Positions 4,401-25,615 of a DNA stretch of 25,679 bases are shown in pieces (the first letter of the stretch is position 1; each line of letters starts with the position of its first letter). A model generated the notes under the pieces. It did no database searches. It saw only the letters and a program-made list of their open reading frames with translations, and was not told where the DNA came from. The DNA is taken from the IMG/VR virus record IMGVR_UViG_3300032294_003147, positions 1 through 25,679 of that record; one strand, written 5' to 3'. Made by a program: the position numbers and the translations under genes. Source of the stretch: a virus.

Positions 4401-5315
4401 ATGAATAAAGAACATTTACACCCAGAAGGAAGACCCTACACAAAAGAAGAATTCATCAACAAAATCAAAACAGATGATGAGTTTGCTAAGAAATGGGGTG
4501 AATTAGGTCCAATTTACGGTAAGCAATGGAGAAGTTGGGTTAATCATGATTTGGAAATACCTAATGGCAATGGGTTGAGATATATGGAAAAACAGACCAT
4601 AGACCAAATCGCAAACCTAATCAACGACCTTAAAACAAATCCAGATTCAAGACGTTTGATGGTAAATGCTTGGAATCCAGCTGATTTAGATGCATCTGTA
4701 CTTCCACCTTGTCATTATGGATTTCAAGTTTATACAAGAGAGTTGAGTCATAAAAAAAGATGTGATTTATTTGGTCATAACGATAGTTTGGATAGAGATT
4801 ATTCATACTCTAAATGGTTAGATGATAATGGATATCCTAAACGAGCAATCTCTTTAATGTGGAATCAAAGATCAGTAGACACAGGATTAGGATTACCATT
4901 TAACATTGCTTCTTATGGGTTGTTGTTAGAAATCATTGCTAAAGCAGTTAATATGGTTCCTGATGAATTGATTGGAAATTTAGGTGACACACACTTATAC
5001 TTAAACCATATTGAACAAGCAAAGGAGCAGATTGGTAGAGAGTTGAGTTTGGAAGAAAGGTTATCTTTAGTTAAAAATAATGTAATGAGTTTTGATGAAT
5101 TATCCAAAGCAAATTATGATGAATTTTTTAAAAAGAATAATATACCGAACAGAACTAGAGAACCATACCCATTACCGACATTAAAAATTGTGGGTTACCC
5201 TGAAAAATATAATCATCCCAATGACGAACGATTATTTGAAGAGTTTGACATATTTGACTTTCAACTTGAAAATTATCAATCACACCCGGCAATTAAATTA
5301 CCTTTAAGTAATTAA
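4401..5315 (+). CDS. thyA: Thymidylate synthase, C-terminal catalytic fragment (split gene)
   Basis: 304 residues holding most of the active site: DSRRLMVNAWNP (phosphate-binding Arg pair), LPPCHYGFQVY (nucleophilic Cys), WNQRSVDTGLGLPFNIASY (dUMP Arg and Asn), GDTHLYLNHIEQ (nucleotide-binding His and Tyr) and SHPAIKLPLSN at the C-terminus. GPIYGKQWRSW is also intact. A phage-type insertion of about 30 residues lies before WNQRS. No catalytic residue appears lost, so the two fragments together could form a working enzyme. The ORF begins with ATGAATAAAGAA, a start sequence shared with genes at 1250, 21449 and 21750. AT-rich composition contrasts with the following gene. Confidence 0.93.
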   Translation: MNKEHLHPEGRPYTKEEFINKIKTDDEFAKKWGELGPIYGKQWRSWVNHDLEIPNGNGLRYMEKQTIDQIANLINDLKTNPDSRRLMVNAWNPADLDASVLPPCHYGFQVYTRELSHKKRCDLFGHNDSLDRDYSYSKWLDDNGYPKRAISLMWNQRSVDTGLGLPFNIASYGLLLEIIAKAVNMVPDELIGNLGDTHLYLNHIEQAKEQIGRELSLEERLSLVKNNVMSFDELSKANYDEFFKKNNIPNRTREPYPLPTLKIVGYPEKYNHPNDERLFEEFDIFDFQLENYQSHPAIKLPLSN

Positions 5316-10839: not shown

Positions 10840-10888
10840 TTAAGTATAATATCTTTACTACTAAATATTACACTTTTGATTGCCGATT

Positions 10889-10917
10889 GGAGCTAACAAC
10901 ACTGTTAGCTCCTTTTT
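10889..10917 (+). terminator. Intrinsic terminator
   Basis: Perfect 10-bp stem GGAGCTAACA / TGTTAGCTCC with a 4-base loop, followed by TTTTT. It terminates transcription from the preceding acidic-protein gene. A TATAATA motif at 10845-10851 lies between that gene and the hairpin, so a very short transcript is also possible. Confidence 0.85.
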
Positions 10918-10919
10918 GG

Positions 10920-10927
10920 TATAATAA
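10920..10927 (+). promoter_or_regulatory. TATAATAA motif, putative promoter of the deacetylase gene
   Basis: TATAATAA directly after the terminator T-run and 4 bases before the deacetylase ATG. Because a terminator precedes it, the downstream gene needs a promoter here, which supports the motif as a real -10 element. Confidence 0.5.
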
Positions 10928-10931
10928 TATT

Positions 10932-11969
10932 ATGAGAACCCGAAAAATAAAAACTTTCTATGACAATCGTCAAGTTTTAGCTCAGGACTCTTACTCTAAC
11001 TACAGTAAGTCTCCGCTAAAACCGAAATTGCTATTAGAATACTTTAGCCAAAAGGGTCTAATTAATCATTTTTCAGTGACTGATGGATTTGAGCCCTATT
11101 CTAAAACCGATTTTAAATTAGCTCACGAAAAAGGCTATATTGATGAATTCTTTAAAGGTACAGGTCGTTGCAGCTCAAACGGGCTGGCCTGGTCAAAGCA
11201 ATTCGCAGAATCCGTGAGATACACGAATGCATCATTACATGCAGCGATACGAAATTCAATAGTGAATCCTGAAGAGGTTAGCTTTAGCCCAACCAGCGGA
11301 TTTCACCATGCACGCCCAAGCGGCGGAAGTGGATTCTGTACGTTTAGCGGCCAAGTGATTGCTTCACTAAAGATTTACAAGGAGTTTGGAGCAAGCGGTG
11401 CATATCTTGATCTAGATGGTCATTTCGGTAATTCAATAGAGGACAGCCGATCATTTTGCAAAGACTTAAATGCAGCAGTTCCGCAAGATTTCAATATTAA
11501 TCCGGTCGGCCTTGATTCAGATTATTTGGCAGATTTAGCGAAATGGTTAGAGAGATTGAAGCATGCGATCATTAAAAATAAAATCCAATATGTGGTTTGG
11601 TGCCATGGTGCAGATTCGCATGCTGATGATAATTTAGGAAGCCAATGCGAAACTGAATATTGGGTCGCTTGTTCAACTCTTTTTTGGAGTTGGGTGAAAG
11701 AGATGGATGAAATATTGGGTCGACCTCTACCTGTTGCATGCGCGTTATTCGGTGGATATCGAGATGATAATTATATGTCAGTCTTAAGTTTACACACAGC
11801 CGACTTCGTTGAGTGCTTTACCAAGTTACTGGACTTGGACGTTAAATATACTATAGAGGTAAAGCCTCGCCTAAAAATGGGATACTATAATGACAAACTC
11901 ATTACCGGAAAGAGAAGATGGTCAAGAAAGAGAAGATGGTCAAGAAAGAGAATGGATCAAGAAATATAA
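10932..11969 (+). CDS. Histone-deacetylase-family (HDAC/AcuC-like) zinc hydrolase
   Basis: 345 residues from the ATG at 10932; an in-frame TTG at 10887 lies inside the terminator stem and is rejected. The HDAC fold signatures occur in order: SGFHHARPSGGSGFC (catalytic His125-His126), LDLDGHFGNS (zinc ligands Asp162 and His164), CHGADSHADDNLG (zinc ligand Asp228) and LFGGYRDDN (Tyr276). These match the family consensus HHA...GFC, D-x-D-x-H-x-G, GADSxxxDxLG and GGY. The enzyme should remove acyl groups from lysine, polyamine or another small substrate in the cytoplasm. The last 25 residues are a basic stretch encoded by an 18-bp tandem repeat and overlap the next gene by 80 bases, so the C-terminal tail may be recent. 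Phage-borne HDAC homologues are uncommon. Confidence 0.88.
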   Translation: MRTRKIKTFYDNRQVLAQDSYSNYSKSPLKPKLLLEYFSQKGLINHFSVTDGFEPYSKTDFKLAHEKGYIDEFFKGTGRCSSNGLAWSKQFAESVRYTNASLHAAIRNSIVNPEEVSFSPTSGFHHARPSGGSGFCTFSGQVIASLKIYKEFGASGAYLDLDGHFGNSIEDSRSFCKDLNAAVPQDFNINPVGLDSDYLADLAKWLERLKHAIIKNKIQYVVWCHGADSHADDNLGSQCETEYWVACSTLFWSWVKEMDEILGRPLPVACALFGGYRDDNYMSVLSLHTADFVECFTKLLDLDVKYTIEVKPRLKMGYYNDKLITGKRRWSRKRRWSRKRMDQEI

Positions 11970-20109: not shown

Positions 20110-20529
20110 ATGACATTAGCAGATCTACACGAACTTTGGCGGATGGGAATCATTGGAGACCAGGAACTCATCCGTACCCAGATAGACCGCATCATGGGCA
20201 AGAGCCAATACGCGGGGACCTGGACCGGCCATGGGCTTGAACTTATCGGACTCCGAATAACCGATTCAACCGGCTTAGACTCCGGACTCCGGGTTGAAAT
20301 GGAAGCCAAGGGACCGATCGCAACCCTGAAGGCCGGGGCATTTGGACTCAAGAACAATCGGGTCCGGTGCGATTGTGTGGTTCCAACCTGGACCATGGAG
20401 AGTCCGGATACCCTAAAGAGCCTGCTCCAAAACAGGCTCATTGTTCTGTTTGGGCACTTTACCTCCGGGGGAGAATCTGGCCCGGGTAGAGGGACCGGCA
20501 AATACGACCCAGTTACTGGCTACGTGTAG
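20110..20529 (+). CDS. Hypothetical protein, 139 aa, 3' end made from a repeat
   Basis: ATG at 20110. N-terminal helix LADLHELWRMGIIGDQELIRTQIDRIMG is followed by a beta-rich domain (GLELIGLRITDSTGLDSGLRVEM). The codons from 20465 to 20499 (SGGESGPGRGTGK) are one copy of a GC-rich repeat whose second copy lies outside the gene at 20537-20570. The C-terminal tail may therefore have been created when the repeat entered. No catalytic motif recognised. Confidence 0.65.
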   Translation: MTLADLHELWRMGIIGDQELIRTQIDRIMGKSQYAGTWTGHGLELIGLRITDSTGLDSGLRVEMEAKGPIATLKAGAFGLKNNRVRCDCVVPTWTMESPDTLKSLLQNRLIVLFGHFTSGGESGPGRGTGKYDPVTGYV

Positions 20530-20570
20530 CCCAAGCCCGGGGGAGAATCTCTAACCGGTAGAGGGCCGGC
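20465..20570 (+). repeat. Two copies of a GC-rich element (GGGGGAGAATCT ... GTAGAGGG)
   Basis: Copy 1 (20465-20499) is inside the 3' end of the preceding gene and copy 2 (20537-20570) is just after its stop. Both read CCGGGGGAGAATCT, a short variable part, then CGGTAGAGGG or CGGGTAGAGGG, then CCGGC. The GC-rich flanks can pair with each other, giving a small hairpin in each. Confidence 0.75.
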
Positions 20571-20755
20571 CCAAAATTTCAAATTTTAGGTCAATTGCGG
20601 AGACCGGGAAACCCTAGGACCCGTAGATACCGAAATTGGTCCGGGAAGCCTCCTCCTGGCCATGGGGATTTCGGAAAAAAGTAAAGTGCTGCGGCCGTCC
20701 TCCTGGAGTACTTTTATTACCTCGGCAAGGTCACTCCCGGGGCACCGCCAGGCAG

Positions 20756-22411: not shown

Positions 22412-22434
22412 CTAAAAAAGTGAAAATAAATTTT

Positions 22435-23239: not shown

Positions 23240-23262
23240 TCCGGCACCGGCCGGGCGGAGGA

Positions 23263-23336
23263 GCCACTCCCTAGTACGGGTGGCCGGCTTCTCTGGCCGG
23301 TTGGAGCGGACCTGGGACCGGACTCCCTAGTAAAGA
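23263..23336 (+). repeat. CTCCCTAGTA element, copy A
   Basis: Two conserved cores, GCCACTCCCTAGTACGGGTGG at 23263-23283 and GGGACCGGACTCCCTAGTAAAG at 23314-23335, with a different GC-rich spacer from copy B at 25542-25615. Core 1 can fold as a hairpin (GCCAC / GTGGC with CC / GG). It lies in the 3' flank of the DUF6011-like gene. Confidence 0.75.
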
Positions 23337-23562: not shown

Positions 23563-23584
23563 TCCAGTCTCTTCGAGAATTGGG

Positions 23585-23592
23585 TATAATAA
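23585..23592 (+). promoter_or_regulatory. TATAATAA motif with four bases to ATG
   Basis: GGGTATAATAAACTT-ATG: the same near-leaderless arrangement as at 2744 and 10920. Confidence 0.4.
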
Positions 23593-23596
23593 ACTT

Positions 23597-23854
23597 ATGA
23601 ATACCTCCAATCAACAAGAAAGAGACAAGATACTTCGCGATCTGACTGGCCTAGCCGCCAGCCTGGTCAGCGGAGGAATCTCTAGAAATCAGCCCGATAT
23701 CCTGTTACTTGGCAAGGTCTTAACCGTAAGTATTGGAGCCCTGGATTCCGAAGCCGGCAAAGAAGAATTAGAAGAATTACTTAACCGGATTCACAGTGCG
23801 AGAGAGGGAGAAACAGAAGTGAAGAAGATGTTAAAAGACCTTGGTATTGGGTAA
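23597..23854 (+). CDS. Hypothetical helical protein, 85 aa
   Basis: The start is the ATG at 23597, immediately after TATAATAAACTT, not the upstream frame. Sequence MNTSNQQERDKILRDLTGLA, then SLVSGGISRNQPDILLLGKV and a long acidic helix (EAGKEELEELLNRIHSAREGETEVKKMLKDLGIG). All alpha, no enzymatic motif. The structured-RNA candidate begins 26 bases after its stop, so the two may share a transcript. Confidence 0.7.
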   Translation: MNTSNQQERDKILRDLTGLAASLVSGGISRNQPDILLLGKVLTVSIGALDSEAGKEELEELLNRIHSAREGETEVKKMLKDLGIG

Positions 23855-23880
23855 GATAACAATAATAAAAGATTACAACT

Positions 23881-23986
23881 GGTGGAGGAAGTAACAAGAG
23901 TTACCAACTGACTAGAGTAAAGGATTCTACGGGTAAAAGGTCAGAACCCGCTTGAGAGAATCGTCGGAGCAACACCGAACTCCACC
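23881..23986 (+). ncRNA. Candidate structured RNA, cloverleaf-like with pseudoknot
   Basis: In the 303-base gap between genes the sequence folds as nested helices: P1 GGTGGAG 23881-23887 with CTCCACC 23980-23986; P2 GTAAC/GTTAC (23891-23904, loop AAGA); P3 GATTCT 23923-23928 with AGAATC 23957-23962, extended by CGGGT 23930-23934 with ACCCG 23946-23950; P4 TCGG/CCGA (23964-23978, 7-base loop). CTGAC at 23908-23912 can pair with GTCAG at 23940-23944 in the P3 loop, a pseudoknot. It resembles a tRNA-like layout but lacks a T-loop consensus and CCA, so it is not a tRNA. A hairpin terminator follows at 24027. No RNA family recognised. Confidence 0.55.
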
Positions 23987-24026
23987 GCAAAATGATAAAT
24001 TGGTTTAGTTGATTGATTCAGCAATT

Positions 24027-24048
24027 GGAGACTCACAAGGTCTCCTTT
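24027..24048 (+). terminator. Hairpin terminator after the structured RNA
   Basis: GGAGAC / GTCTCC stem (24027-24032, 24040-24045) with a 7-base loop and a T-rich tail TTTGTTGGTTTATTT. Weaker U-tract than the others. Confidence 0.6.
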
Positions 24049-24157
24049 GTTGGTTTATTTGGTATAGTATTTAATATTATTAAAGTTACTGCAATAGTAT
24101 TCATAATGTTCATTACAGTAGTATTCTGGTCAAGAAAAAGAAATCAATAGATATACC

Positions 24158-25517: not shown

Positions 25518-25541
25518 CAGGCCAGCCGGCCGAGCCAGTAG

Positions 25542-25615
25542 GCCACTCCCTAGTACGGGTGGTCCGCCGGTCCAGGCACCAGGCGCCCAACCGGGACCGG
25601 ACTCCCTAGTAAAGA
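25542..25615 (+). repeat. CTCCCTAGTA element, copy B
   Basis: Cores GCCACTCCCTAGTACGGGTGG (25542-25562) and GGGACCGGACTCCCTAGTAAAG (25593-25614), as in copy A but with a different 30-base spacer. The hairpin is kept while the base after GTGG differs. It follows the stop at 25517 by 24 bases. Confidence 0.75.

Follow-up and report, generated by a model that had tools for sequence, protein, structure and literature searches.

The locus and its surroundings

The window, that is, the whole stretch of 25,679 nucleotides that we analysed (positions 1 to 25,679 of IMG/VR record IMGVR_UViG_3300032294_003147), contains towards its right end a gene-free gap for which a structured RNA had been predicted. 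The RNA core (23881-23986, + strand, about 106 nt) lies between gene X (23597..23854, +), starting 26 nt past its stop codon, and a terminator-like 3′ hairpin (24018..24053, +). Gene X encodes 85 aa of no known family, predicted with low confidence to be helical (AlphaFold pLDDT 64), and has orthologs in all five loci. By three-phage comparison the core is preceded by a strictly conserved 5′ flank, ATTACAACT (23872..23880, +), in which CAACT is a possible partner for RGTTG near 24005-24009, and further downstream there is a conserved 3′ linker, ATTGGTTTRGTTGATTGATY (23998..24017, +), which is found also in relatives without the RNA. The original prediction placed a terminator hairpin at 24027-24045; a hairpin is indeed present, but its stem is longer (24018-24053) and the T run behind it is weak (TTTGTT). 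It is kept, with a different stem sequence, in the relatives G005 and G013. A promoter-like motif follows right after it, and the sequence beyond differs between the sister phages described below. In G005 and G013 a sigma-70-like gene, recognised by eye, lies directly behind the hairpin (L041:11874-12824 and L056:8382-9329); it is missing at that place in the window and its sisters G001 and G002, and a second, diverged copy occurs further on in several records (L011:8449-9114, L013:2711-3394). We also noted a short membrane-like reading frame, IKVTAIVFIMFITVVFWSRKRNQ, at window positions ~24084-24149, which starts with ATG in G002 and with ATT in the window.

A phage-type promoter-like motif, GGTATAATAA, is positioned at 23583..23592 (+), where it would give gene X a leaderless start. 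Across the relatives this motif is found in 21 copies versus 5 in shuffled sequence, just before many gene starts and often 4 nt before the ATG (leaderless), and it looks like a phage-specific promoter. Its sites are at 2744, 10918 and 23583 of the window, with many more in L011-L084, one of them before an apparent tRNA gene (L044:2804). A poorer version, GGTAAGATAA (23850..23859, +), overlaps the gene X stop and is an uncertain candidate for a weak promoter; because it is broken in G001, we consider an own promoter for the RNA to be possible at most.

This part of the window has six AT-rich repeats of 48-95 nt, each of which terminates in TATATTTG or a close variant. Copies of the repeat, at 22425, 22706, 24402, 24774, 25070 and 25632, contain GTTATATTTG or a near match. 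These are probably repeated phage promoters, fitting the Bacteroidota -7 promoter element, TAnnTTTG (PMC6847099). The thymidylate synthase has its nearest match among annotated phages in Flavobacterium phage immuto, and together with the Bacteroidota-type promoter repeats this indicates a Bacteroidota phage. The source is probably a large virus infecting Bacteroidota, and the lineage probably belongs to the jumbo phages.

The window encodes several host-like genes, for a histone-deacetylase-fold protein, a Fapy-DNA glycosylase and the thymidylate synthase (10887-11969, 1913-2743 and 4401-5315), and G002 encodes UvdE and a tyrosinase-domain protein (L014:9630-12680). GC-rich repeats of 90 nt are located at 23247-23336 and 25526-25615, with ACTCCCTAGTA twice per copy, and occur also in G001 and G002; the first has a strong fold (-51.5 kcal/mol) within an AT-rich region, and they possibly represent another RNA or a recombination element. 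Another GC-rich repeat, of 38 nt, is present in two copies (20465-20502 and 20537-20574; CCGGGGGAGAATCT...).

Predicted fold of the RNA core

The prediction comprised five helices and a loop-to-junction pairing, CTGAC with GTCAG, within 106 bases, and direct reading of the sequence located every one of these pairings in a form that can pair. The closing helix P1 has 7 bp (GGTGGAG 23881..23887 / CTCCACC 23980..23986, +) and is invariant in the three phages. It encloses hairpin A, GTAAC-AAGA-GTTAC (23891..23904, +; GTAAC 23891-95, GTTAC 23900-04), hairpin B (23923..23962, +), and hairpin C, TCGG-AGCAACA-CCGA with a 7-nt loop (23964..23978, +; TCGG 23964-67, CCGA 23975-78), a single base separating the end of hairpin C from the 3′ strand of P1. 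Hairpin B is built of two stem segments, an outer stem GATTCT/AGAATC (23923-28/23957-62, +) and an inner stem CGGGT/ACCCG (23930-34/23946-50, +). The putative pseudoknot would join CTGAC plus T913 (23908..23913, +), located by direct reading, to GGTCAG in the hairpin B loop (23939..23944, +).

The minimum free energy (MFE) of the 106-nt core is -30.8 kcal/mol (z -2.8), and none of 200 dinucleotide shuffles was as good. When the shuffle test was enlarged, 36 of 3000 folded equally well (p ~0.01), and by z the core ranked 11th among 513 106-nt windows of the contig; taken alone, the folding energy is suggestive and not decisive. In silico, the reverse strand of the core gives an equally good fold. 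For the tip of hairpin B, the single-sequence MFE prefers CGGGU/GCUUG plus GGU/ACC to the inner stem with the pseudoknot, so that the latter is one of two modelled options; the alternative tip loses only one pair in G002 and is nearly as compatible with the sister sequences. A 5-bp Watson-Crick match between loop and junction arises in 1.4% of shuffles for the same segment pair, and in 6% when all combinations of single-stranded segments are considered, which makes the pseudoknot weak when judged on this match alone.

Conservation in two sister phages

Searching with neighbouring proteins and DNA patterns, we found two sister contigs that carry the RNA, G001 (31.5 kb) and G002 (45.7 kb), in both of which it is syntenic and single-copy. 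Over the 126 nt at 23872-23997, the window and G001 show no difference (0/126, 100% identity), and 5 substitutions and 1 gap separate the window from G002 (95% identity). The three sequences are exactly identical at 23872-23920 and 23950-24006, and the conserved block thus exceeds the interval first proposed. At the third codon positions of the two flanking genes, 13/85 and 15/79 differ between the window and G001 (~15%), a rate at which, by our arithmetic, about 20 changes per 126 positions are expected under neutrality. The conservation of the core is above this background, and the core is also more conserved than gene X itself.

Several other stretches of the window are near-identical to sister sequence, some of them to G002, and the strong identity of the block could in part be a product of local recombination among sister phages. 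This raises the alternative that the fold arose by chance in a stretch made identical by recent local recombination, in keeping with a folding p of only ~0.01. We consider this quite unlikely, as the sequence immediately to the left has diverged, as have the genes on either side, and the few differences within the block leave the helices and the pseudoknot unbroken.

All the nested pairs (27/27) and the five Watson-Crick pairs of the pseudoknot can be formed in the three phages. A covariance search for homologues had been suggested as a check: both sisters do keep every helix, but compensatory double changes amount to zero among the three near-identical copies, with one G-C to G-U change. With this change, T for C949 in G002, the + strand can still pair as G-U, but the - strand would have A-C instead. 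T913-G939, the sixth pair of the pseudoknot, lies opposite a gap in the alignment, with an A in G002; it reads U-G in the window but U-A in G002, and is valid on the + strand only. The changes in G002 favour an RNA made from the + strand, and a one-base deletion in the G002 block argues against coding. The hairpin B loop, AAAAGGTCAGA in the window, has become TTAAGTCAGG in G002, and GTCAG is unchanged in all three phages; the chance that four events would spare these five of the eleven loop positions is ~4.5%. This sparing speaks for the pseudoknot, against which stand the shuffle frequencies and the MFE tip given above, and a pairing of the hairpin B loop with the junction appears plausible.

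Comparison with known RNAs

None of the Rfam 15 families (riboswitches, ribozymes, RNase P, tmRNA, SRP, ROOL, GOLLD and others) gave a match at its gathering score. At E≤10, with both the window copy and the most diverged copy as queries, the few matches were far below gathering and at chance level, and BLAST of the region against annotated phages and plasmids returned short chance matches only. Along with conservation far above that of nearby third codon positions, these results support the prediction that the gene-free gap holds an unclassified structured RNA, outside the catalogued families. Further readings were rejected. GAGGAA, CAGAACCCG and ACTCCACC are by eye suggestive of RNase P, yet the RNase P models gave no match; a type III toxin-antitoxin RNA does not fit a single copy with no repeat array, followed by genes without a Pfam family or a ToxN-type PHROG; and a 15-nt complementarity to the mRNA of a DUF6011 gene in G001 is not kept in the other phages.

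The cloverleaf layout, with its 7-bp closing stem and, adjacent to the 3′ strand, a 4-5-bp arm with a 7-nt loop, resembles that of tRNA (RF00005), and the RNA could on these grounds be tRNA-derived or tRNA-shaped and processed by RNase P or the CCA enzyme. As the original prediction pointed out, however, the T-loop and CCA are lacking: the motif TTCRA is absent from the core, where the loop of hairpin C reads AGCAACA, and in place of a 3′ CCA the downstream bases are GCAAAA. No D-loop or anticodon-loop signature was found in the core either. ARAGORN detected no tRNA in the window or its two sisters, and RF00005 at E≤1 matched nothing in G000-G002, while as a positive control it gave 9 matches in the relative G005 and 25 in G010. 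R1, our covariance model of the RNA, does weakly match huge-phage tRNA genes (22.8 bits, E 0.011), mostly through the hairpin C arm and the following CAAAATG, but aligns P1 with the D-arm and not with the acceptor stem. We therefore consider a tRNA origin or shape very unlikely. The same small probability applies to a tRNA-shaped decoy, in which the acceptor/T-arm half would be imitated, and a pseudoknotted arm would replace the anticodon arm, so as to capture or use the host RNase P, CCA enzyme or another tRNA-handling factor. The gene in the weak R1 match is a tRNA-His of a 635-kb phage (L019:1501-1574); its T-arm and the CAAAATG that follows account for the match, which probably arose by chance.

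The stable RNAs C and D of phage T4 are encoded in a tRNA cluster of this E. coli phage. They are likewise small structured phage RNAs in a gap, with no assigned role, whereas the window and its two sisters hold no tRNA and the host here is probably of the Bacteroidota. The tie to T4 made in the original prediction reduces to an analogy, with the promoter repeats and the thymidylate synthase pointing to a Bacteroidota phage. In the SAM-I riboswitch, the aptamer is a multiway junction closed by P1 with a loop-junction pseudoknot, features that the RNA core shares as modelled here from sequence. An aptamer-like junction with a pseudoknot, followed by a terminator-like hairpin, could be read as a riboswitch or attenuator acting on the downstream genes. 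Unlike SAM-I, the core has no Rfam match, and inspection by eye found no conserved antiterminator overlapping P1 and the terminator, only a CTCC/GGAG overlap of 4-5 bp that is altered in the sisters. Moreover, a promoter-like motif stands right behind the hairpin. As relatives that lack the block retain this hairpin, and the sisters have different sequences beyond it, such regulation is highly unlikely. The GOLLD and ROOL RNAs are large, ornate noncoding RNAs associated with phages (PMC12286853); like the present RNA they are structured, with no assigned function, and they differ from it in size, being large compared with ~106 nt, the present RNA also having no Rfam match.

A lineage-restricted block

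A scan with the neighbouring exonuclease as query recovered 12 more records that belong to the phage group, including two of ~253 kb. Model R1 found no copy of the RNA in these 12 more-distant phage records, in five 20-kb pieces searched with filters off, or in 395 Bacteroidota genomes. A genome scan gave four matches, which had low model scores and were dismissed as chance. Pattern scans of IMG/VR viral contigs (junction, hairpin C, 3′ linker) recovered the RNA only in the two sisters; they also matched two relatives without the RNA, and their matches in L008 and L085 were attributed to chance.

G005 and G013 have gene X orthologs with 43-49% identity. At their syntenic site, which lay outside the original account, ...TAAGAAACTAAATTTG runs directly into ATTGGTTTGGTTGATTGATCCAG and then into the hairpin with its different stem sequence; in G005 four bases of the linker are missing. 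The block that holds the RNA (23872..23997, +; 120-130 nt, with edges good to a few bases) is absent there, and thus it was either gained within one lineage or lost from the cousins, inside a conserved 3′ module.

Such clean presence and absence at one site, along with inverted ends in the form of a 7-bp terminal inverted repeat and AAATT on both sides in G002 as a possible direct repeat, would also be expected of a small MITE-like mobile or inserted DNA element whose RNA fold is secondary. The block, however, is single-copy in each record and found nowhere else in the searched relatives or collections, its changes obey RNA pairing rules and its identity is above that expected of an idle insert, so that we regard an inserted element as unlikely.

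The main rival is a cis-acting 3′-UTR element, with no separate life, whose fold would stabilise the gene X mRNA or set its decay. It agrees with the 26-nt distance from the gene X stop, the lack of a convincing own promoter and the 3′ hairpin that comes next. Against it, the core is conserved beyond gene X itself, and relatives that lack the block still have both gene X and the 3′ hairpin. The gene can thus dispense with the block, which weakens this explanation; we view it as doubtful, if worth serious attention.

Proposed role of the RNA

The reading we prefer is that the locus encodes a small structured noncoding RNA on the + strand, with its core at 23881-23986 and a transcript probably spanning ~23864-24053. 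It would originate from the promoter-like motif at 23583, forming the 3′ terminus of the gene X mRNA, or else from the weak promoter at ~23850, and would end at the 24018-24053 hairpin. The core would fold into a closed four-way junction, in which the loop of hairpin B probably forms the pseudoknot with junction bases. We infer that the RNA is transcribed, adopts this fold in three dimensions and binds protein, the last from its compact structure and the conservation of both paired and unpaired parts; its most likely role would be to bind protein as a folded RNA, building up in the course of infection. With the pairings, conservation, family-less status and presence/absence pattern observed, we consider it probable that the conserved RNA feature is real; for the whole statement, a small folded, protein-binding + strand phage RNA ending at the 3′ hairpin, the balance is even.

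The three phages with the RNA and the two without it at the same site provide a natural comparison for finding its function. If real, the RNA would represent a new family, from a group of Bacteroidota phages that has received little study, and one more among the few compact pseudoknotted phage RNAs.
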